Shown piece by piece: positions 35,935 to 54,304 of a stretch of 64,000 bases of DNA. This DNA is from Acidobacteriota bacterium. Lineage in GTDB: Bacteria; Acidobacteriota; Vicinamibacteria; Vicinamibacterales; CAVVIG01. The translations under genes were made by a program, and so were the position numbers. The stretch spans positions 1 through 64,000 of the forward strand of contig QHWB01000057.1 in the NCBI GenBank assembly GCA_003222395.1, read 5' to 3'. Position 1 is the stretch's first letter. Each line of letters opens with the position of its first letter. Below the pieces are notes generated by a model. The model was not told the origin of the DNA. It worked only from the letters and a program-made list of their open reading frames with translations, and made no database searches.

Positions 35935-36465
35935 CTAGTGCGAGGACGGAGGGGCCCGGGGCGTGGCCGCGCCCCGCGTCGGATCGAGGGCCCGCGCGTC
36001 GTTCACCGAATCCGAATGTTCGGCGACCGCCGCCGGCGGCGCGTGCCCACAGGACGTCGCGACCTTCGACGAAGGCGGTTCGTTCTGAATGGTCTGTTCG
36101 TCGCAGGCGCCGCCGTGTTCCCACGTGTCGTCCGGGGGACAGCCGTCGACGATCGGCTTGTGCTCGGGTTTCTTCGAGGTCAGCCGTCCGTTGCCGTCGT
36201 TGACCCAGACGAGGAATCCGCGGTCGGTCGATGCGACGACGTCGAGGTCGCCGTCGCGGTCGATGTCAGCGGTCAGCGCGCCGCGGACGACGATGTCGTA
36301 CCGGGTCGCGATCGTGCGCGAGAACGACGCGACGTCGATCGTACGCTCGACGCTCACGAACGCGCCGGCGGGCACGTTCGCGCGTGCTGCGGTCGCCACG
36401 GCGAGAGCGATCACCGCCGAAACAATCGCGACGCGGGCGCGCATCACCCGACGATGATAACTCAC
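35935..36465 (-). CDS. secreted VCBS/FG-GAP-like protein at end of gvp operon
   Basis: This 176-residue protein has a signal peptide (VAIVSAVIALAVATAARA) and one calcium-binding-like FG-GAP/VCBS unit, ADIDRDGDLDVVASTDRG, followed by VWVNDGNGRLTSKK. A Cys/Pro-rich tail follows. The GTG start at 36465 overlaps the gvpK stop as GTGA, which ties it to the gas vesicle operon. ATG 36444 is an alternative start closer to the signal peptide. Its function is unknown and an export role would be odd for a gas vesicle protein. Confidence 0.7.
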   Translation of the reverse strand: MSYHRRVMRARVAIVSAVIALAVATAARANVPAGAFVSVERTIDVASFSRTIATRYDIVVRGALTADIDRDGDLDVVASTDRGFLVWVNDGNGRLTSKKPEHKPIVDGCPPDDTWEHGGACDEQTIQNEPPSSKVATSCGHAPPAAVAEHSDSVNDARALDPTRGAATPRAPPSSH

Positions 36466-36854
36466 ATCAACTTGCCGATCGGTCCGAGATCGAGATTGAG
36501 ATCTTCGGGCGACAGTCCGAACCTTACACCGATGTCGCGGATCGTCTCTTCAAGGCGCATCAATGCAATGCCGACGGCTTCAACTTCCTTACGCGTGAGC
36601 GTCTTCTGCTCCATGCGGCGGATGGCCTGGCGCTCCATCAGCTTGCGCAGGAACTCGACAATCGTCAGCACCAGCTGCGCGACCGATTTCTGCACATCGT
36701 CCGGATCCGGATTCCATCGCGCCGGTGTGGCGCGCCGCTCGATCTCCTTGCGGAGCTGCCGCAGTTCGGCGGCGGTGACGGGCGCTGCTGCCGCGGTCGC
36801 GCGCGGATGGCGGCGCCGTTTCGGTTGAGCGCGGCGGCGCGAACGTCGCTTCAC
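36462..36854 (-). CDS. gvpK: gas vesicle protein GvpK
   Basis: This 130-residue protein has the GvpK pattern: RWNPDPDDVQKSVAQLVLTI, LRKLMERQAIRRMEQKTLT, AVGIALMRLEETI and the ending LSPEDLNLDLGPIGKL. GvpK is a conserved accessory factor needed for gas vesicle assembly. The GTG start at 36854 overlaps the preceding gene by GTGA; the N-terminal 35 residues are an Arg/Ala-rich extension before the conserved part. It is the last gvp gene of the operon. Confidence 0.93.
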   Translation of the reverse strand: MKRRSRRRAQPKRRRHPRATAAAAPVTAAELRQLRKEIERRATPARWNPDPDDVQKSVAQLVLTIVEFLRKLMERQAIRRMEQKTLTRKEVEAVGIALMRLEETIRDIGVRFGLSPEDLNLDLGPIGKLM

Positions 36855-37150
36855 GACTTGCGGCGTCTCGTGAAGCGCGGGCCTTGGCGAAGGCGTTTGG
36901 ACGGGCGGCGGCCGCCCGGCCGAAGCGTCGCGCTCCGCTTCGGCAGCACGCGGTCGGCCGCGCACAACAAGGTCGACAGGCGCAGGTAGATGAGATCGAT
37001 GCCGGCGACGCCGAGCATCAGCTCGCCGCTCGCCATCACGCCTCTGTTGAGCAGCTCGTCGAACACGTCGAGCAGCGTCGATTGCGGCGTCTCGACGATG
37101 TCGCCCGCGACGCGGAGGCGCGACGGTGGTCTCGCAAAGGAGTCCGGCAT
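36851..37150 (-). CDS. GvpA-family protein (GvpM/GvpS/GvpJ-like)
   Basis: The 99-residue protein has a GvpA-fold core: TLLDVFDELLNRGVMASGEL, then LGVAGIDLIYLRLSTLLCAAD. The NRGV...GVAGIDLIYLRL spelling is closer to GvpM/GvpS/GvpJ minor proteins than to the structural GvpA. A basic C-terminal tail of about 30 residues follows. It lies 3 bp after gvpL and is coupled to gvpK by GTGA. It is the third GvpA-family gene in the operon. Confidence 0.85.
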   Translation of the reverse strand: MPDSFARPPSRLRVAGDIVETPQSTLLDVFDELLNRGVMASGELMLGVAGIDLIYLRLSTLLCAADRVLPKRSATLRPGGRRPSKRLRQGPRFTRRRKS

Positions 37151-37153
37151 CGG

Positions 37154-37930
37154 TTAGTCCTCAACGAATGTGTACGGCGGCCACGGTCCGGTCAGCGTGA
37201 GACCGTAACCGTCCTTCGCGAGTGCCCGCGCTTCGCGCGCCGCCTGCGCGCGAAAGGCGCGCGCCCTGGCGCGCGGGACGAGAAACGCGGCGTCGAGCAG
37301 CAATGGGCCGTCGGTCGGCAGCTCGGTCGCCGATCGCCGCTTTGCCTGTCGCGATCGCGACGCGAGCCGATCGTACACTGCGGAAACCGTCTCGCGTGCG
37401 TGCTCGGCGAGCTCGACCGCGGCGTCGCGCTCGGCTTTCTTACGCGCCAGATAGCCGGCACCCGTCGCGTTCTTGTTCGTGCGCGCGCCGGTCCGGTGGG
37501 AGGCGGCGCGGCGGCGCACGGCGGCTGCGCGATCGAGCACGACACGAATCCCGAACTCCTGCTGCCGTGCGACGCGCCTCATGACGCTGCTGATGCGCCG
37601 CCGATCTCCGCGAACCTGCTCCACCGCGCGTCGGTCGTTCGTGAAGATCGTGAACAGCTTCATCGGCAGCACCGCGTCCGCTTCGCCGAACGATTCGACG
37701 ACCGCCTCGTGCGCCACCGCCGCGCGCGACACCCATTCGAGGTCCGAGAGGCGCTTGTTGATGGCCGCTTGGCCGTACTCCTTCGTCGGCACGTCGGTGA
37801 CGACGAGGTAGAGATGGCGATCGACGTCGAGCACCCGAACAGCACTCGAATGCGGCAGTCGGCGCGCCGCCGCAGGCACGCGCGGACGCCGCGGCGCCGA
37901 GACGACACAGTAGACATACGTGGCGTTCAT
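37154..37930 (-). CDS. gvpL: gas vesicle protein GvpL/GvpF family
   Basis: The 258-residue protein has the GvpL/F features: an opening ATYVYCVVSA, an HEAVVESFGEADAVLPMKLFTIF block and a closing LTLTGPWPPYTFV. GvpF/L proteins bind GvpA subunits and act in assembly. It is markedly Arg/Ala-rich in the middle. It overlaps the ArsA-like gene upstream by ATGA. A second GvpF/L protein is encoded at 40357-41340. Confidence 0.92.
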   Translation of the reverse strand: MNATYVYCVVSAPRRPRVPAAARRLPHSSAVRVLDVDRHLYLVVTDVPTKEYGQAAINKRLSDLEWVSRAAVAHEAVVESFGEADAVLPMKLFTIFTNDRRAVEQVRGDRRRISSVMRRVARQQEFGIRVVLDRAAAVRRRAASHRTGARTNKNATGAGYLARKKAERDAAVELAEHARETVSAVYDRLASRSRQAKRRSATELPTDGPLLLDAAFLVPRARARAFRAQAAREARALAKDGYGLTLTGPWPPYTFVED

Positions 37931-39987
37931 ACGATCCAGCGGCGCGCCCACTCGCTCAGCGCGCGGACGCCGCGGGGCGGCGGCGCCGTCAGCGGCGTCT
38001 GGATGATAACCCGCCGTTGCGACAATCGCCTCAACGCGGCCAGTTCGCTGCGCTCGGTCGCTGCCGTCGCGCGACACCGGCGGCATCGTCCGGGCGTCAG
38101 TGTCATCGCGTTCACGACGAGCGCCGGCGTCGCGAGCTGGAGGCGCCGGAGCCGCTCGAGGAACCGCTCCGTTTCGCTCCGCGGCACCTGCGCCGCGCGC
38201 GCGACGACGATGAAACGGGTCGCCTGTCGATCGTGCAGCAGCGCCTGCAGATCACGAATCGACTTCGAGAGATCGACGAGCGCCGCGGCGAGCGGTCCGG
38301 CACGTACGACGGATCGATACTTGAGCAGGACCCGCATCAGGACCTGGACCCACGCGCGCGCCGCCTCGGGCATCTCGAGCAGCCGAACCGCGTGTCCGGT
38401 CGGCGCAGTATCGATGACGATCGCGTCATAGGCAGTACGCGCGCCCACCACCGAAAGGACCCCGAACAGCTCGTCGATGCCTGGCGGCGCGATTTTCAGG
38501 AGCTCCGACCCGCGGCCGCCAATCCGAACGCCGGCCGCGCCGACCGTCGACGCGATCTCTTCGAGCGCCGACTCGAGATCGTGTCGCCGCGCGGCCAGCG
38601 CCGCTTCCGCATCGACCTCTCGTGCGACGAGATTCGCAGGACCACCTCCAACGCGACGCGGCCGATCGCTCAGCCGCGCCGAGAACACGTCGCCGAGCGA
38701 ATGCGCCGGATCGGTGGACAGGAGCAGGATTCGGCGGTCCGGATGCGCATGCGCCAGCGACAACGCCGCCGCCGCTGCGACCGTCGTCTTTCCAACGCCC
38801 CCCTTTCCGCCGAAGAACACGAGGCGCGCGTCACCTAACAGTTCTGGCAGCGGCGGACCAGCGTGTCCGCCCCGCTTCGTCGGTACGCCATGTCGTTCGA
38901 AGACGACACGGCGGCCGGAGGCGACGCGCCGCCCTGGGCCGACGCGCGGATCGGAGCCGACATGCTGGTCGGGCCCTACGAGTGACCGTCCAATTGCCGC
39001 CAGAGCATTCACGCTGCGGGGTTCCTCGAGCTGCGCAGGAATCAGCCGAACACGTCGTCCGCGTCCGATCGTCCGCCGGATGCGCGCGATCGTCCGCGCC
39101 TCGTCCGCGATGCGGCGATCGCACAGCGGACACGGACCGAGATCGGTGAGCACATGGTTCACGACGACTTCGGCAATCGGCACGCCGATCGCGTCCAGCG
39201 CCGCGAGCGCGTCTTCGCTCTCGGCCACCGACATCGGTTCGGGAAGCGTCACCCAGTGAAAGGCTGTGCGACCGCCGTCGCGCAGCCGCTCGGCGATTTC
39301 CGCGGCTTGCGCGCCGATTTCGGCGATGAGGCGGTCGGCAGCTTCAGGACGGCCGACCCGTGCAAGCTGCTGGCGAATCAGCCGATGCTCTTCCTGGAGC
39401 GCGTCGAGCACTTCTGCGACTGCCGCCACCAGCTCGGGCGCCCCGAGCAACCGCAAGGTATGCCCGGTCGGCGCCGTGTCGACGACGATGAGATCGTAGG
39501 GAGCGCGCTTGCGAATCGGGCGGGCCTCGCCGAGGCTCGCCGAGGCGCCGGAGGCGCGAAGGCGGCGCGCTCCAGAGAGACGATCGATTTCGATCAGACC
39601 CACGAGCTCGTCGACGCCCGGGATCGACAAATCGAGCAGCGCGTCGACATCGTCTCGATCGAGCCAGGTGCCGTGCTCGAGCACATCGCCCAGAGCCACC
39701 CGGTTCGCGTCCACCCACCGTGCCAATGCCCTCGGCGCGTCGAGCTCGATCGCATCGAACGTGTGGCGCTTCGCGCGGATCCGCGTCGGCCGGACGCCGA
39801 GCCTGGTCACCAACGCGTCGCCGAGCGAATGCGCGGGATCGGTGGAGACGACGAGCACCTGCGAGCCCGAGGCTGCTTCAGCGAGAGCTCGCGCGGCAGC
39901 GCACGTCGTTTTGCCGACGCCGCCTTTTCCACCGTAAAAAACAAATCTGGGCCGGGGACTGGTCGCTGCAGGCTGGCGGGTCGTCAG
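37927..39987 (-). CDS. tandem ArsA/GET3-like ATPase within the gvp operon
   Basis: Two ArsA/GET3-type ATPase domains lie in one chain of about 686 residues. Domain 1 begins FVFYGGKGGVGKTT and contains STDPAHSLGDALVT and VVDTAPTGHTLRLL; domain 2 begins LVFFGGKGGVGKTTVAAAAA and contains STDPAHSLGDVFS and VIDTAPTGHAVRLLEMP. There is no ATG, GTG or TTG between the gvpG stop (39991) and the first P-loop. The best start is CTG 39987, seven bases after GAAGG; the GTG at 39858 would delete the P-loop. Two hairpin-derived segments lie in domain 1 and the linker. The family handles arsenite or tail-anchored proteins; here it may be an assembly ATPase. Confidence 0.85.
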   Translation of the reverse strand: MTTRQPAATSPRPRFVFYGGKGGVGKTTCAAARALAEAASGSQVLVVSTDPAHSLGDALVTRLGVRPTRIRAKRHTFDAIELDAPRALARWVDANRVALGDVLEHGTWLDRDDVDALLDLSIPGVDELVGLIEIDRLSGARRLRASGASASLGEARPIRKRAPYDLIVVDTAPTGHTLRLLGAPELVAAVAEVLDALQEEHRLIRQQLARVGRPEAADRLIAEIGAQAAEIAERLRDGGRTAFHWVTLPEPMSVAESEDALAALDAIGVPIAEVVVNHVLTDLGPCPLCDRRIADEARTIARIRRTIGRGRRVRLIPAQLEEPRSVNALAAIGRSLVGPDQHVGSDPRVGPGRRVASGRRVVFERHGVPTKRGGHAGPPLPELLGDARLVFFGGKGGVGKTTVAAAAALSLAHAHPDRRILLLSTDPAHSLGDVFSARLSDRPRRVGGGPANLVAREVDAEAALAARRHDLESALEEIASTVGAAGVRIGGRGSELLKIAPPGIDELFGVLSVVGARTAYDAIVIDTAPTGHAVRLLEMPEAARAWVQVLMRVLLKYRSVVRAGPLAAALVDLSKSIRDLQALLHDRQATRFIVVARAAQVPRSETERFLERLRRLQLATPALVVNAMTLTPGRCRRCRATAATERSELAALRRLSQRRVIIQTPLTAPPPRGVRALSEWARRWIV
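38852..38871. repeat. REP-like hairpin in the linker of the ArsA-like gene
   Basis: GGCGGAC (38852-38858), loop CAGCGT, GTCCGCC (38865-38871): a perfect 7-bp stem in a roughly 150-bp stretch encoding the Arg/Gly/Pro-rich linker between the two ATPase domains. Confidence 0.7.
39501..39573. repeat. GC-rich repeat insertion in ArsA domain 1
   Basis: A run of GGCTCGCCGAGG-type words encodes an Arg/Ala/Ser/Gly-rich segment of about 22 residues just before the conserved YDLIVVDTAPTGH of domain 1. Domain 2 has only a short loop at the same place. Confidence 0.6.
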
Positions 39988-39990
39988 ACG

Positions 39991-40284
39991 TCAGCCTTCA
40001 GAATTCCAGCTTTCGATCTCGACGCCCGACACCTTGTCCTCGGGCGACATGCTGATGGCGCCCTGCGGCCGCCCTTTGATCTCGCGGATGCGGGCGAGGA
40101 TGTCGCGCTCGGTCTGATGGAATTCCTTTTCGGAGATCTCGCCGAGCTCGAGCCGCATCTGCGCTTCAAGGAGCTGTTCGCGCAGCGCGGTATCGTCGTT
40201 CATCTCGGCCTCGGCCGCGGCAACCACTTGGTCGAGCACGAAGCGCAGGCCACCGATGAGCAGCGAATCGAGGATGAACATCAT
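39991..40284 (-). CDS. gvpG: gas vesicle protein GvpG
   Basis: The 97-residue protein begins with the GvpG signature FILDSLLIGGLRFVLDQVV and continues with a helical LREQLLEAQMRLELGEISEK and EFHQTERDILARIREIK. GvpG is a small accessory protein that works with GvpF/L in assembly. The TGA stop is in the same frame as the following ArsA-like gene, 3 bases before its probable CTG start. A heptamer repeat fills the gap to gvpF. Confidence 0.92.
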   Translation of the reverse strand: MMFILDSLLIGGLRFVLDQVVAAAEAEMNDDTALREQLLEAQMRLELGEISEKEFHQTERDILARIREIKGRPQGAISMSPEDKVSGVEIESWNSEG

Positions 40285-40355
40285 TCAGCTATCAGCTCTC
40301 AGCTTACAGCTATCAGCTATCAGCTGAAAGCTGAAAGCTGATAGCTGAAAGCTGA
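40285..40355. repeat. heptamer-word inverted repeat between gvpF and gvpG
   Basis: The 72-bp gap consists of the 7-base words CAGCTAT, CAGCTCT and CAGCTTA on the left and AGCTGAA, AGCTGAT and AGCTGAG on the right, which are complementary and form a long imperfect hairpin. There is no gene in it. Confidence 0.85.
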
Positions 40356-40356
40356 G

Positions 40357-41340
40357 TCATGCCCTTTCGAGCTTCAAACGAATGTTGACGAAATTGTACG
40401 GAGGCCAGGGGCCGGTGTACTTGAACGTCAGCTTGTCGAACTTGCTTGCGATCGACTTCACCTTCGCGTCGAACGCCTGCTCCTGATCGCGCGAGATCAG
40501 GAAGGCCGCGTTCATGATCATCTTGTCGCCGATCGGTTTGTTGATGCGCGACGCCACCGAGACCTCGCGGAGCTGCTCGAGGATGTCGGCGACGTAGCGC
40601 TCCGATCGAGACTGCAGCGCCGAATCGATGAGGCGTCCGTACTGCATGCGCGCGAAGTAGGTCGGACCCTTCTGGCCGGAGATTTCCTTCTTCAGCCGGC
40701 TGATGTCCTCGTCGTCGCTCTCGACCTCGCGAATCGACTGGTCGCGATCCCACAGCACCTTCAGTCCGAACTCGAGCTTGTTCTGCATCTTGTTCAGCAC
40801 GTCGCCGAAGGCCTCGGCGGCCGAGCGCAACAGCTCGACGATGTCGTCGCGCGTCTTGAATATCGTGCCGAACGACATCGGAATGACCGTGTGCTCGCGC
40901 ATGACCGTTTCGTTCACACGCTCGTGCGCGAGCACGTTCTCGCGCGTGGAGTCGAGCACTTCGAGCGGCGCGTCGGACACCACCGCCGCGAGGCTCTTGT
41001 AGTGCACCGTGTAGACCTCCGACGGATCGCTGCCGATGCCGATCGGCCCGAATCGCAGCGCGTCGTTCGATTCGATGATGCAGTAGACGTACTTGCCGCG
41101 GCTGCCGCCGGACGCGGGCGCCTCCACCGTCGTCGCTTTCCCGCCCTGAACGATCTTCTCGGACGATCGATGCACCGCACGGCCTTCGTGCTTCGACGGC
41201 TTCGCCGCGGCCTTCACGGCACCGTTCGCTCTGCCTGCGCGCGCCGGACGCGCCGTCGCCATCTTCTTGCCGCCCGCGCGCAGCGGCGGCGCCACCTCGC
41301 GATCGCGCTTGCGGGCGTTAGTTGATGGTGTTCTTGCCAT
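40357..41340 (-). CDS. gvpF: gas vesicle protein GvpF/GvpL family with basic N-terminal tail
   Basis: This 327-residue protein has a GvpF/L domain from about residue 85: GKYVYCIIESNDALRFGPIG, HERVNETVMREHTVIPMSFG, YFARMQYGRLIDSALQ and the closing TFKYTGPWPPYNFVNIRL. The first 80 residues form an Arg/Lys/Ala-rich tail, longer than in other GvpF proteins; whether it is translated from ATG 41340 or from an internal start is open. It overlaps the response regulator end by 23 bp. Confidence 0.92.
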   Translation of the reverse strand: MARTPSTNARKRDREVAPPLRAGGKKMATARPARAGRANGAVKAAAKPSKHEGRAVHRSSEKIVQGGKATTVEAPASGGSRGKYVYCIIESNDALRFGPIGIGSDPSEVYTVHYKSLAAVVSDAPLEVLDSTRENVLAHERVNETVMREHTVIPMSFGTIFKTRDDIVELLRSAAEAFGDVLNKMQNKLEFGLKVLWDRDQSIREVESDDEDISRLKKEISGQKGPTYFARMQYGRLIDSALQSRSERYVADILEQLREVSVASRINKPIGDKMIMNAAFLISRDQEQAFDAKVKSIASKFDKLTFKYTGPWPPYNFVNIRLKLERA

Positions 41341-41764
41341 ACTTGGCGCTCCTGCGGGTTTTCTTCGTTGAGGCCGACGCGAGATCGTCCAGCACTTTCC
41401 GGATTTCCTTCACGAGATCTTCCGGCAGACAGGGCTTGGTGACGAACGCGTCGCAGCCCGCCTTCTTCGCGCCGTCGGAGATGCCGGCGAGCGCGTGCCC
41501 GGTCAGCGCGACGACCGGAATCGACGCCGTTCGCTTGTCCGCCTTCAGCCGGCGCGTCGCCTCCCAGCCGTCCATGACCGGCAGCGACAGATCCATCAGG
41601 ATGATATCGGGCTGCTCATCGACGGCCCGCTGCAGCGCCTCCTGGCCGTTCTGCGCTTCGACGACGTCGAACCCCGAATATTGCAGGTACTCCGAGTACA
41701 TCTCGCGCGCGTCCGGATAATCGTCGACGATGAGCACACGCGGCCGTTGATCCTTGTTGGTCAT
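41318..41764 (-). CDS. receiver-only response regulator in the gvp operon
   Basis: The 148-residue protein is a CheY-like receiver: [13 protein letters not shown] (acidic pocket), the phospho-acceptor in [24 protein letters not shown] (the T/S switch) and [11 protein letters not shown] (the conserved Lys). A C-terminal basic tail replaces an output domain, so it must act through partners. It is coupled to the histidine kinase by ATGA and overlaps gvpF, a placement unusual for gas vesicle clusters. Confidence 0.9.
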
Positions 41765-44058
41765 TTCCGTCCCTTGATCGGCAGCGTCAGGGTGAACGTC
41801 GAGCCCTTGCCGACCTGACTTTGAACTGAGATCCGGCCGTCGAGCATCTGGGCCAGACGGCGGCAAATCGACAGGCCGAGGCCCGTGCCCCCGTATGCGC
41901 GCGTCGGCGTGTTGTCGAGCTGTCGAAAGTCTTCGAAGATTCGGTCCTGATCGGCCGCGGAGATGCCGATTCCGGTGTCGGTCACGGCGAGCGCGATCGT
42001 GCGGTCTCGCGCGTTGCGTCGCGCAGACAACGTCACCCCGCCGTGATGGGTGAACTTGACCGCATTGCTCAGCAGATTCACGAGGATCTGCTTCACCTTC
42101 TGGCGATCGGTCACGAGCTGGGGCAGATCGCGTTCGAGCTGCATCGTCACGGTGAGCTTCGAGCGCAGGATGATCGGGTCGAGCTCGGCCCGTACTTCCG
42201 ACATCAGGTCGTGGATCTTGAACTTCGAGGCCTGCAGCGGCATGCGGCCGGCCTCGATGCGGGAAATGTCGAGAATCTCGTTGATGATCGTCAGCAGGTG
42301 GCGGCCGTTCGATTCGACGCGCGCGAGCTGCCGCTTGACGGGCGCCTCGAGCGGGCCGGCCACGCCCTGCAGCAGCATCGACGTGTAGCCGAGCATCGCG
42401 TTGAGCGGCGTGCGGAACTCGTGCGACATGTTCGCGAGGAACTGCGACTTCAACGCCGACGCCTGCTCCAGCTCGATCGCCTGCCGCCGTAGCAGCTCGT
42501 TCTGCTGCGCGATATCGGCCGTCGCGGCCTGAATCTTTCGCTCGAGCTCGTCGGCCGCGTGCTGGAGCTGCTCGTAGAGTTCCGCTTTCTCGATCGCTTC
42601 GCGCCGGTCGTGCAGGATCGTGACGACGGCGTTCAGCTCGCCGTGTTCCGACAGGATCTTTCCGGCAATCGCCTCGACCGGCATCGGCTCGCCCGCCTTT
42701 GCATCGACGAGGCCGATCTCGCCGTTGCGGCGTTGATCCGCGCTGACGAGCATGCCCGCGATGAACGACGAGAAATGCGCGTCGTTGGTCTGCACCCAAC
42801 GCTGCTCGATCTCGCTGGCGCCCGACGGAATCGTGAAGAGCCGCTCGGCCGGTTCGTTCATCAGCGAGGTCGCGCCAGACGCGTCGGTCACGACGATCGG
42901 ATCCGCGACCGAATCGATGATCAGGTTCAGACGATCGCTCTCGGCGCGCGCCTGCGCCTCGGCGACGCGCATCTTGCGATAGTTCTCCTCGATCTCCTCG
43001 CTTGCGCGGCGCAGGTCGGTGACGTTGCGGAGAATCGAGACGACGCCGCTGCCCTGCCGCGGATCCTCGGTGACGGTGCTGAGCAGCTCGAACACGAGGT
43101 CCGAACCGTCGGCCGGGTTGACGAGCAGCAGCTCGCGCCGCCTGGCGCCAGTCTCTTCGATCGCCTTGCTCGAGAGCGCCGACGACAGCAGCATGTTGTT
43201 CATCCGTACCGCGCCGCGGCGTCCTTCGCTCTCTTCTTCCGACGCCGTGAACAGCGTCAGCGCGCGCTGGTTCGCGATCAGCAGCCGCCCTTCCGTATCG
43301 GTCAGCAGAATCGGATCGCTGACGGCGTTGATGATGCTGTACAGCAGCGATCGCTCGCGGCCCTGTTTGCGGCCTCCTTCGGTGAGCGCCTGCTGCCGCA
43401 GAATCTGATCGAGCTTCTGGACGAACACGCTGATGAACCAGTGCAGCTCCGACGTCACCGGCGCGCGGCCGTCGAGCAGCAGCAGGCCAAACGCTTCGTC
43501 GCCGACGCCGCTGACGCCGAGCGGCACGACGTGGAACGCCGCGTCGTCGAACGGCGTCGCCGGGCGCCGCTTCCGATCGGCAGCCGAGTGCGCGTCAGGG
43601 AAGAAGACTTCTTTGCGGTTGTTCAGCGCGTTGACCAGCGGGTTGCCCCACTCCTCGAGCGAGACGGTGAAGGACGACGCGGCGGGATTGGTGAAGCCGT
43701 ACTGGCCGGCGGCGAACAGCGCGGGATCGCCCATCGGCCGGACGAGACAAATGGACTTCGAGATGCCGAGCGTCTCGCCGATCCACTGCAGTGCGTGCTG
43801 GGCCGTGTCGGAGACGTCGGTACGGCTGATGAACCCTTCGAGCAGCCGCACGCGCGCCGCGAGCTGCTGCTGCTCCTCGTCGCTCAGCGCGGAGGCTTCT
43901 TCGACCGCGACGCGAACGCGCGGGACGCCGGTGTAGGGCGTCGAACCGTTACGCCTGCTCGCGGGCCTTCGCGCGGCGTCGACCGCGACGAGTGCGGCCG
44001 GCGGCGCCAGGCGTGAGCTTAGCCCTGAGGGCGGCGTTTTCAGCAACGACTTCCTCAT
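41761..44058 (-). CDS. GAF/PAS hybrid-free histidine kinase in the gvp operon
   Basis: This 765-residue (or shorter) sensor kinase contains a GAF-like domain (about residues 60-210), two PAS domains (about 230-350 and 370-480), a coiled coil, HisKA with [15 protein letters not shown], and an HATPase with [21 protein letters not shown] and [15 protein letters not shown]. It has no membrane helix, so it is a cytosolic sensor. ATG 44058 overlaps gvpA by 110 bp; an in-frame GTG near 43855 is the only later candidate. The signal is unknown. Confidence 0.88.
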
Positions 44059-44287
44059 ATCCCTTGCTCTCGATCGCCGGCTTCGCGACCGGCGCGAGCG
44101 ACCCGACCGCTTCTGAGTACTTCAAGTATGTCTCGATCGACGCGACGACGATGCGGGCTTCGACGGTGATGAGATCGATGCCGACCAGTGAGACCCTCAC
44201 CCATGCATCGATGACGATCCCCTTGTCGAGCACTCGGTCGAGGACGTCGATAAGACTTGTGCCGCCTGCTGCACGTTCAACGGGCAT
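43949..44287 (-). CDS. gvpA: major gas vesicle structural protein GvpA
   Basis: GvpA forms the rib of the gas vesicle wall. The 112-residue product has the canonical core [20 protein letters not shown], then [20 protein letters not shown] and [12 protein letters not shown] hydrophilic C-terminal extension (about 35 residues, ending in a basic [13 protein letters not shown]) is present, longer than in cyanobacterial GvpA but common in GvpA/B of other bacteria. It lies second in the operon, 25 bp after gvpJ. Confidence 0.95.
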
Positions 44288-44312
44288 CGAACTCTCCTTG
44301 CGGCGCGCGCGG

Positions 44313-44639
44313 CTACCTCATCGTCGCGGTTCGGCGCCGCATCAGCGTCGCGAGTCGACGCTCGAGCACACGCACCTGCTTGCGTAGTTCTTCGTTTTCG
44401 GCCGACACCGCCTGCCGCCCCGGCGAGAGGTGGTGGTCGTACTTCCACCAATCGAGTCCGATCTGTTCAGCCTTGTCGATCGAACAGATCAGCAGTCGAA
44501 TCCTGATCGTCAGGAGCTCGACTTCCGCGAGCGAAACCTTGATATCGCCCGCCACCACGAGACCTTTGTCGAGGACGCGATCGAGGACTTCGACGAGACC
44601 CGTGGATCGTCCATGGCCCTCAATCAGTGGCGTCGGCAT
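44313..44639 (-). CDS. gvpJ: GvpJ, minor GvpA-family protein
   Basis: The 108-residue protein has the GvpA fold ([40 protein letters not shown]) and a GvpJ-like continuation with [14 protein letters not shown], ending in a coiled-coil-like tail. GvpJ is a minor wall or nucleation protein. It is the first gene after the sigma-54 promoter, with a 5' leader of about 60 bases. Confidence 0.9.
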
Positions 44640-44712
44640 AAGTTCGGTATTCTACGTGGTCGAACAATCGATTTGTCGCTTGACCTCGGCCGAGGGACGG
44701 GGGCTTATCTCA

Positions 44713-44727
44713 GCAATGGTAGTGCCA
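44713..44727 (-). promoter_or_regulatory. sigma-54 (-24/-12) promoter of the gas vesicle operon
   Basis: On the minus strand TGGCAC (44727-44722), 5 bases, then TTGC (44716-44713) and T matches the sigma-54 consensus TGGCAC-N5-TTGCW exactly in sequence and spacing. It lies 74 bases upstream of gvpJ, the first gvp gene, in an otherwise gene-free 172-bp region. Confidence 0.8.
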
Positions 44728-52828: not shown

Positions 52829-52945
52829 GCGGCGCGCTGTCGTGATACGGAAATGACCGGCACGGCGGCCGATCGGGCCGTCTTGCGGGTCGGCCACATG
52901 CCCTGTCGGTCGGCCCCGGATCGGCCGATATCCTAAGTGCACATA

Positions 52946-54304
52946 ATGGATGACCTGACCTTCAGCGCCCGCCGTGCGAGCACGGCAGCGACCGCGCGGC
53001 CCGACGCGGGCGGCGAGCTCGAAACCCGCTTCAAAACGCTGGTGCAGTCGCCACTGCGCGCCGGCATTCTTCGTTATCTCAGCGCGCGGCCCGACGAGAG
53101 CTTCGACGTCGAATCGCTGATGCAGACGTTCGGCCGCCTGCGGCTCGACGTGGAAAACTGCGTGCGCGAGCTCGCCGACTTCGGCGTCGCGCGCGTTGTG
53201 CCGGGCTCGCCGCCTCGCTACGCGATCGAACGGCCGGCCAACGACACCATCGTCGACCTCCTCGATCAGTTCCTCGAACGGCGCGCGAACGTCTCGACCG
53301 AGGATCAGTCGCCGTCGGTGCAGCGGTTCCGCGAGATGATCGGCCGCGACGAGAAGATGCTGATCGTCTTCGAATGGATCCGCACGGCCGCGAAATCCGA
53401 TATCTCCGTGCTCGTGCTCGGCCCGACCGGATCGGGCAAAGAGCTCGTCGCGCGCATGATTCACGAGCTCAGCCGCCGGAGCGTCGCGAAGTTCCAGGCG
53501 GTCAACTGCGCGGCGCTTCCCGATACGCTGTTCGAATCGGAAATCTTCGGGTACGAAAAGGGCGCGTTCACCGGGGCGCACGATCGGAAGCCCGGACGGC
53601 TGGAGCTGGCCAACGACGGCACGTTGTTCCTCGACGAAATCGGCGACATGTCGCTCATCGCGCAGGCCAAGCTGTTACGCGTGCTCGAAGAGCGGCGCTT
53701 CGAACGTCTCGGCGGGCACAAGTCGATCTCGGTCGACTTCCGACTGATCTCGGCGACCAACCGTCCGCTCGAGCAGTTCGTGCGCGACGGCCGCTTCCGC
53801 GAGGACCTCTACTACCGGGTGAATGCGTTCGCGATCCGACTGCCGTCTCTGCGCGAGCGGCAGGTCGACATTCCCGTGCTCGCGCAGCGATTCCTCGCGC
53901 GGTACTGCGCCGCGCAGGGGTTGCCGCTCGACAATAAGGCGTTTTCGCGTGAAGCGCTCGATCTCCTCGTGGGCTATCATTGGCCGGGCAACATCCGCGA
54001 GCTCGAAAGCACGGTGTCCCGCGCGGCGCTGTCGGCGCCCGGCCGCACGATCCGCGCGTCCGACGTCGAGTTCCTCCACGCCTCGACCTCCGCGCCGCAA
54101 CCATCGGGCGAGCACATGCCGACGCTCGCCGAATCGGAACGCGCGCACATCGTGCGGGTCCTCGAAGCGGCGCAGTGGAACAAGAAAGAGGCGGCGCGCG
54201 TGCTCGACATCAGCCGCGGCACGCTCTATCGAAAGATCGTTGAGTATCAGCTGGAGCCCGAAGCACGGCCGGCGACACGCCGGACGCGCGAAACCGAGGT
54301 TTGA
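52946..54304 (+). CDS. sigma-54 enhancer-binding activator with wHTH N-terminus
   Basis: This protein of about 452 residues is a sigma-54 activator. The N-terminal 120 residues form a winged-helix-like domain (PLRAGILRYLSARPDESF; LADFGVARVVPGSPPRYAIE) instead of a receiver. The AAA+ domain has Walker A GPTGSGKELVAR, the sigma-54 loop KGAFTGAHDRK, Walker B GTLFLDEIGDM and the arginine-finger segment FREDLYYRVNAF. The C-terminal Fis helix is NKKEAARVLDISRGTLYRK. GTG 52937 is a slightly longer start. It is the only such activator in the window and a candidate for the gvp promoter. Confidence 0.9.
   Translation: MDDLTFSARRASTAATARPDAGGELETRFKTLVQSPLRAGILRYLSARPDESFDVESLMQTFGRLRLDVENCVRELADFGVARVVPGSPPRYAIERPANDTIVDLLDQFLERRANVSTEDQSPSVQRFREMIGRDEKMLIVFEWIRTAAKSDISVLVLGPTGSGKELVARMIHELSRRSVAKFQAVNCAALPDTLFESEIFGYEKGAFTGAHDRKPGRLELANDGTLFLDEIGDMSLIAQAKLLRVLEERRFERLGGHKSISVDFRLISATNRPLEQFVRDGRFREDLYYRVNAFAIRLPSLRERQVDIPVLAQRFLARYCAAQGLPLDNKAFSREALDLLVGYHWPGNIRELESTVSRAALSAPGRTIRASDVEFLHASTSAPQPSGEHMPTLAESERAHIVRVLEAAQWNKKEAARVLDISRGTLYRKIVEYQLEPEARPATRRTRETEV

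Follow-up and report, generated by a model that had tools for sequence, protein, structure and literature searches.

What leads a cell to build gas vesicles, and which ATPase drives the insertion of GvpA, are open questions that have been studied mainly in organisms bearing GvpN. A stretch of 64,000 nucleotides from an Acidobacteriota bacterium (contig QHWB01000057.1; hereafter the window) poses both in a different setting. Ten genes of a gas vesicle (gvp) operon lie there in continuous order on the minus strand (36462-44639 of the 64-kb window), namely a gvpJ-like gene, gvpA, a sensor histidine kinase, a receiver, gvpF, gvpG, a tandem ArsA/GET3 ATPase, gvpL, a gvpS/M-like gene and gvpK, with no gvpN among them. 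What would govern such an operon, and what would power it? We find that the kinase stands directly behind gvpA in nearly all related clusters with room for it. This association is wide and, as far as our searches show, new to print, whereas the occurrence of ArsA in a gvp cluster is the part already known. Taken as a whole, the explanation that we lean towards is a GvpN-less type of gas vesicle operon in probable soil and groundwater bacteria, in which a kinase and a receiver would carry the signal and a GET3-like ATPase would help assembly. A conserved GvpN-less operon type with its own kinase offers a compact, testable system and new parts for the vesicles that serve as ultrasound reporters, and it draws attention to vesicle genes in soil phyla that have been little noticed.

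Gene content of the operon and its genome

Each of the ten products matches its expected Pfam family: Gas_vesicle three times, GvpL_GvpF twice, HisKA, HATPase and PAS in the kinase, Response_reg in the receiver, and GvpG, tandem ArsA_ATPase and GvpK once each. GvpF/L, GvpG and GvpK all exceed their Pfam cut-offs, while several like-named NCBIfam models stay below theirs and the GvpJ-like protein falls under the cut-offs of both NCBIfam models, GvpJ and GvpA. Residues 1-71 of GvpA align to the solved shell protein PDB 8gbs (E 8e-25), and residues 1-65 to PDB 7r1c (E 8e-21). Beside this shell protein and its relatives J and S/M, the operon codes for F, G, L and K, which form the scaffold set. 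The initial annotation had described a minus-strand operon in this order with most junctions overlapping, and this description stands, with five of the nine junctions overlapping when the longest open reading frames (ORFs) are used (gvpA/kinase 110 nt, kinase/receiver 4, receiver/gvpF 23, ArsA/gvpL 160 and gvpS/M-like/gvpK 115, of which the first and the last two depend on the choice of start codon). The other four junctions leave gaps of 25, 72, 3 and 3 nt. The kinase frame covers the 3′-end of gvpA at 43949-44058, the stretch that codes for the basic C-terminal extension of GvpA. A purpose-written Nei-Gojobori script gave ratios of nonsynonymous to synonymous substitution (dN/dS) of 0.11-0.47 for the ten genes against locus L135, indicating constraint (GvpK 0.11, GvpJ 0.12, receiver 0.15, kinase 0.19, ATPase 0.29, S/M 0.47). 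Four relatives were compared in all, and the highest ratio among them is the 0.64 of the S/M-like gene against L109. Judged on its sequence, the locus is very probably a real gas vesicle gene cluster.

The absence of GvpN extends from the window to the genome, an assembly of 7.74 Mb in 118 contigs with 99.3% completeness and 3.0% contamination. Of the 44 weak matches, the strongest reaches 32.6 bits against a curated cut-off of 266.8, and at that lax threshold all 14 control genomes also give matches. GvpK is present as a single copy, and the genome search returned no gvpF or gvpL copies outside the operon. The initial annotation had also called for a search for a second gvp cluster with gvpN; none was found when GvpN, GvpF/L, GvpK and GvpA, though not gvpG, were searched genome-wide. 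Two lone gvpA-like genes of 74 and 64 residues lie on other contigs, the nine neighboring ORFs tested around each held no other gvp family, and the two are possibly remnants or solo genes.

GvpN has been listed as conserved in all gas vesicle clusters (PMC9501494). It is not strictly defining, because the Streptomyces cluster also lacks it. The Streptomyces coelicolor gvpOAFG-JLSK cluster resembles the operon in its missing GvpN, its soil host and its F-G...L-S-K core (PMC9501494, PMC4982088), but the gene order listed for it contains neither ArsA nor a kinase. The initial annotation had called a gas vesicle-like particle in a probably soil-type lineage unexpected, but such genes are not new to soil bacteria, being known from Streptomyces and Bacillus megaterium (PMC9501494).

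Distribution of the operon type and its kinase

In an even sample of the phylum, GvpK occurs in 23 of 396 genomes, the source genome included, and six of these show the gene order of the window. By profile annotation all six carry the kinase and the receiver, and none has GvpN. ArsA is present in three (the window, L052 and L055) and missing in the others (L044, L054 and L089). The kinase and receiver that the initial annotation regarded as built into the operon are thus conserved, whereas a single conserved unit of gvpA, kinase and arsA, a synteny for which it had suggested a survey, is not supported. GvpN was found in nine of the other 22 GvpK-bearing genomes surveyed, and in the stretches around those nine clusters the top match to the gvp kinase profile is 209 bits (L051) and does not adjoin gvpA. 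Outside the order of the window, gvpA is followed by a full-length relative of the kinase in genome G148 (303 bits), and pieces of one lie at a contig edge in G376. One of the six same-order clusters (L044, genome G293) keeps the kinase, receiver, F, G, L, S and K, while gvpA and gvpJ were not found (one Gas_vesicle match in the genome), through either decay or a gap.

A wider survey took the best 80 of 181 confirmed named loci, which were fetched with a GvpF alignment from clusters of the window's type and are therefore enriched for it. They come from Acidobacteriota, Myxococcota (including records titled Deltaproteobacteria), Rokubacteria, Planctomycetota and Gemmatimonadota, and all but one are titled metagenome-assembled genomes. 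The arrangement labels, distances and bit-score cut-offs behind the locus counts are our own choices. Arrangement 1 (34 loci, four phyla) reads J-A-kinase-receiver-F-G-(ArsA)-L-S-K with few permutations, and arrangement 2 (24 loci, from Gemmatimonadota and other Acidobacteriota) reads F-G-(ArsA)-L-S-(F)-K-J-A-kinase; the remaining 22 loci have no gvpA on the available stretch. GvpN was found in none of the 80. A GvpF tree, built by a quick method and with long outgroup branches, places 48 rows, including the arrangement-1 loci and four named phyla, in one starred group.

Among the 57 named loci with room for the test (at least 1.5 kb of contig after gvpA), 55 have a kinase profile match above 100 bits directly after gvpA, comprising 34 of 34 in arrangement 1 and 21 of 23 in arrangement 2 (misses L153 and L159). 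Under stricter distances the kinase was counted in 50 of 57 loci, ArsA in 42 of 67 and a receiver following any kinase in 37 of 65; the limits were widened because the kinase is in fact present in five of the misses (L108, L112, L117, L168 and L172). Eight sequences of the phylum survey, probably including the G148 relative (303 bits), which apparently comes from the genome of L145, served to train the profile, and best scores in the 34 arrangement-1 loci range from 828 to 1256 bits. A receiver above 100 bits is present in all 34 and directly adjoins the kinase in 32. Within the source genome, the nearest paralogue matches over the kinase core only, with 155.6 bits versus 1650 for the gvp kinase itself, which from its sequence looks like a dedicated family without a close paralogue there.

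Both proteins keep the signature residues of a two-component system. The phosphoacceptor histidine, N, D/G, F and G boxes are invariant in 66 aligned kinases (score of at least 280 bits and length of at least 600 aa), with H546, N661, N665, D694, G696 and G698 conserved in 66 of 66, and Asp58 and Lys110 of the receiver are conserved in 46 of 46. Kinase distances follow GvpF distances with r 0.83 (n 62), alongside GvpA (r 0.81, n 62), GvpK (0.80, n 54) and GvpL (0.83, n 58). These correlations, and that of the receiver given below, were reached in 0 of 999 permutations, and shared host ancestry adds to them. Because of the conserved neighborhood and this co-divergence we propose that the kinase governs the vesicles, and the kinase and receiver are most likely dedicated to the gas vesicle cluster. 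No report of a gvpA-adjacent kinase appeared among the open-access matches listed, a search that did not cover subscription papers and preprints; the kinase in PMC7325909 is phoR.

In the sensory part of the kinase, GAF_2 falls under the Pfam cut-off in the window (E 2e-4), and GAF lies over the cut-off in the distant relatives L145 and L155. A structure model of residues 60-490 (mean predicted local distance difference test score, pLDDT, 90; predicted template modeling score, pTM, 0.59) has as its best structural matches PAS sensor proteins, e.g., LOV-HK, DosP, FixL and phytochromes, and the 50 Foldseek rows listed are mostly PAS and phytochrome proteins. Residues 60-243 alone gave no PDB sequence match at E 0.1. 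The domain layout, inspected without a predictor, shows no apparent membrane segment. Heme or LOV sensing was considered and set aside: across 44 kinases of the window lineage, 80% is reached by a single histidine column, where PAS2 ends, and by no column of cysteine, and for this reason we name no ligand. Five Rokubacteria clusters (L101, L102, L108, L112 and L117) have an extra kinase-like ORF of 144-163 bits between gvpF and gvpG.

The tandem ArsA/GET3-family ATPase

An ArsA-type ATPase in a gas vesicle cluster is not the novelty that the initial annotation took it for. Castillo and Saier (2010) had already described it in such operons, one of them an acidobacterial cluster for which no GvpN is listed, and proposed that tandem ArsA energizes a step of vesicle biogenesis (PMC2963123). 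Their clusters share with ours the tandem ArsA, and the acidobacterial set, with two L/F genes, J, K and M, and no N, agrees with the gene set found here. The phrase "histidine kinase" has a count of 0 in the available text of PMC2963123, and the kinase, the receiver and their conservation are what the present analysis adds.

The full frame scores 347.3 bits with TIGR00345 (TRC40/GET3/ArsA), over the cut-off of 135. The GKGGVGKT P-loop and the DPAHSL motif each occur twice, and all 60 aligned ATPases have two P-loops. CXXC motifs, CPLC and CRRC in the window, are found in both halves of 45 of the 60, in one half of two and in neither half of 13, including the six Gemmatimonadota rows. CXXC is a zinc motif at the GET3 dimer interface. 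Get3d and some functional GET3 proteins do without it (PMC10248533), and eukaryotic GET3 generally has it (PMC5382584). The P-loop, DPAHSL and a CXXC per half are thus shared with GET3/TRC40, from which the operon ATPase differs in having two halves in one chain and a client that is only putative. The structure model (pLDDT 87, pTM 0.87) matches full-length ArsA 9nbw over 531 residues (Z 33.1, root-mean-square deviation 3.0) and, with one half, TRC40 3zq6 over 275 residues (Z 32.8, root-mean-square deviation 2.0). Because it matches both, the fold alone does not separate ArsA from GET3. A role as chaperone for the GvpA family is a serious possibility that falls somewhat short of probable.

ArsA follows gvpF in 48 of the 67 named loci with room. 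Where same-order clusters lack it, G325 has an ArsA-family protein elsewhere in the genome and G293 and G317 have none. Strict replacement of GvpN by ArsA was rejected, as both occur in L051 and L053 and neither in L044 and L089. The ATPase frame opens right after the GvpG stop (39985-39990) and has no in-frame ATG, GTG or TTG before the P-loop, leaving CTG as the candidate start; 8 of 58 clusters likewise have no usual start at least five codons before the P-loop used, which in some rows was the second P-loop. A programmed frameshift yielding a GvpG-ArsA fusion was discarded as a shared device, since the ArsA frame relative to GvpG varies among loci.

Proposed mechanism, alternatives and candidate control elements

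In the explanation that we prefer, the kinase would sense an intracellular cue via its GAF-PAS-PAS region and pass phosphate to the receiver. Because the receiver has no DNA-binding part, its action would be through contact with other proteins: it would either feed into a phosphorelay controlling transcription of the operon or touch the assembly machinery. The ATPase would hold hydrophobic members of the GvpA family in solution until their incorporation by GvpF/L, and may thereby do the ATP-driven work done elsewhere by GvpN. We consider it doubtful that the receiver acts on assembly rather than on transcription. The most far-reaching version, a GvpN-less vesicle lineage of at least five phyla with a dedicated phosphorelay of non-transcription-factor output, whose phospho-receiver acts on assembly proteins while the GET3-like ATPase hands GvpA-family subunits to the shell, is distinctly improbable.

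Several observations weigh against the preferred explanation. The cluster is patchy, occurring in the 23 GvpK genomes of 396 in the phylum and in none of the six further genomes sampled from the window's own family, and the sibling L044 is without gvpA and gvpJ. The survey counts describe one lineage and not gas vesicles at large, because the loci were fetched by GvpF from such clusters; some genomes contribute more than one locus, and the shortness of many contigs makes absences local only. Arrangement-2 kinases are more distant (13 of Gemmatimonadota type at 597-665 bits and seven of Blastocatellia type at 303-338), L150 has a partial kinase of 112 bits, and L147, L153 and L159 have none. 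Seemingly unrelated kinases score 209 (L051) and 170 bits (the second kinase of L145) on the same profile, and the orthology of the arrangement-2 kinases is less sure because their scores lie nearer to these. No arrangement-2 locus (0 of 24) has a receiver match above 100 bits; in the two checked, L145 and L155, the kinase is followed by a hybrid protein with two receivers and a kinase. Receiver divergence also follows GvpF less closely (r 0.49, n 44). For the ATPase, the structure matched best over its full length is an arsenite ArsA, that of L. ferriphilum (the 9nbw match above), and the gene is missing in three of the six same-order clusters and 19 of the 67 named loci with room.

Conventional transcriptional control, in which the kinase and receiver feed a phosphorelay to a sigma-54 activator encoded elsewhere and nothing acts on assembly directly, comes close to an even prospect. 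A perfect sigma-54-like site lies upstream of the operon, the sole exact match to the consensus in the 64 kb (0.04 expected), and rpoN is present in the genome. In Serratia sp. ATCC 39006, whose gvp/gvr cluster also has its own regulators, the NtrC-like GvrA drives gvpA1 from a sigma-54 promoter (PMC4982088, PMC11778176). Serratia differs, however, in that its cluster includes GvpN as well as an NtrC-like regulator, whereas here the kinase stands behind gvpA, the receiver is free of any output domain (PF00072 only) and no GvrA-type DNA-binding regulator is encoded in the operon. The site is also confined to the window and its close relatives. Sites matching at 9-10 of 10 positions, at -86 to -103, occur in the window, L094, L096, L098 and L135, making 5 of 35 upstream regions at 9 or better (shuffle mean 0.145, maximum 2 of 35), with the other 30 at 8 or below; lowering the threshold to 8 gives 7 of 35, and here the shuffles have a mean of 2.0 and reach 7. 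A broader scan, in which starts were chosen by a different rule, found 5 of 72 at 9 or better, against 19 of 1440 random stretches. Sigma-54 control across the whole lineage was accordingly dropped. In 13 of the 35 upstream regions, the window included, a 5/6 match to TATAAT independently lies 8-10 nt before the chosen ATG (500 mononucleotide shuffles: mean 0.73, maximum 5). This box beside the ATG, together with the lack of any Shine-Dalgarno sequence found before the gvpJ-like ATG of the window, suggests a leaderless operon mRNA.

It is unlikely, though less so than the most far-reaching version above, that the particles are not buoyancy organelles (having a storage, stress or envelope-like role) or that the gene set is mostly silent or decaying in soil lineages. 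The record titles indicate probable soil and groundwater hosts, the source genome has its lone gvpA-like genes, and L044 lacks gvpA and gvpJ. For the S. coelicolor cluster, which is also without GvpN, another or no vesicle function has been discussed (PMC4982088), but PMC9501494 counts Streptomyces among vesicle formers. Against this alternative stand the closeness of GvpA to structural GvpA and the constraint on all ten genes. That the ArsA-like protein handles arsenite or other metalloids and sits in the operon by chance is very improbable, even with the L. ferriphilum ArsA as top structural match. The frame reaches 217.3 bits with TIGR04291 (arsenical pump-driving ATPase), far under the cut-off of 650, and its CXXC motifs are as in GET3, in line with the GET3-like character first assigned to it. 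The metalloid-binding cysteines named for bacterial ArsA (PMC5382584) were not seen at the 9nbl-aligned sites, in one alignment read by eye. ArsA distances track those of GvpL (r 0.95, n 45), and tandem ArsA occurs in gvp operons of several phyla (PMC2963123).

Table 1. Features of the operon and related elements, with their positions in the window or, for the two lone genes, on other contigs of the source genome.
Feature	Position	Strand	Evidence or remark
GvpA-family gene 1, GvpJ-like	44313..44639	-	PF00741 60.9 bits
gvpA, shell protein with basic C-terminal extension	43949..44287	-	PF00741 60.8 bits; NF006874 GvpA 111.4 bits (cut-off 100)
Sensor histidine kinase, GAF-PAS-PAS-HisKA-HATPase, 765 aa, start uncertain	41761..44058	-	Pfam; GAF_2 under cut-off
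Single-domain receiver, response regulator without output domain	41318..41764	-	PF00072 92.3 bits, no other domain
gvpF (GvpF/GvpL family)	40357..41340	-	PF06386 258.5 bits
gvpG	39991..40284	-	PF05120 65.5 bits
Tandem ArsA/GET3-family ATPase, probable CTG start at 39987	37927..39987	-	TIGR00345, two P-loops, two CXXC
gvpL (GvpF/GvpL family)	37154..38086	-	PF06386 146.5 bits
GvpA-family gene 3, GvpS/M-like	36851..37150	-	PF00741 36.6 bits
gvpK, true start probably downstream of listed GTG	36462..36965	-	PF05121 107.1 bits, residues 84-167
Predicted sigma-54-like promoter, TGGCAC-N5-TTGC	44713..44727	-	74-88 nt upstream of gvpJ-like start
-10-like box, TAGAAT	44649..44654	-	ends 9 nt before gvpJ-like ATG
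Hairpin of 7-nt TCAGCTN repeats	40285..40356	-	between gvpF and gvpG
Lone gvpA-like gene L006	G000:C40:46215-46331		short tail unlike that of window GvpA
Lone gvpA-like gene L007	G000:C47:35515-35634		ends after core

A sigma-54 activator gene, whose product has a Fis-type helix-turn-helix and no receiver domain, lies at 52937-54304, 8 kb outside the operon; it is a possible partner in the transcriptional alternative, and it is followed by a gene for an HD-GYP/GGDEF-like protein (read by eye). Within the operon, the repeats between gvpF and gvpG form a predicted hairpin of -48.2 kcal/mol (z -6.4 for 40280-40370), and the three-unit TCAGCTN pattern has 194 matches in the genome, overlapping ones counted, against 0 for the reversed control. 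The hairpin could determine the balance between the genes upstream of it and those downstream.

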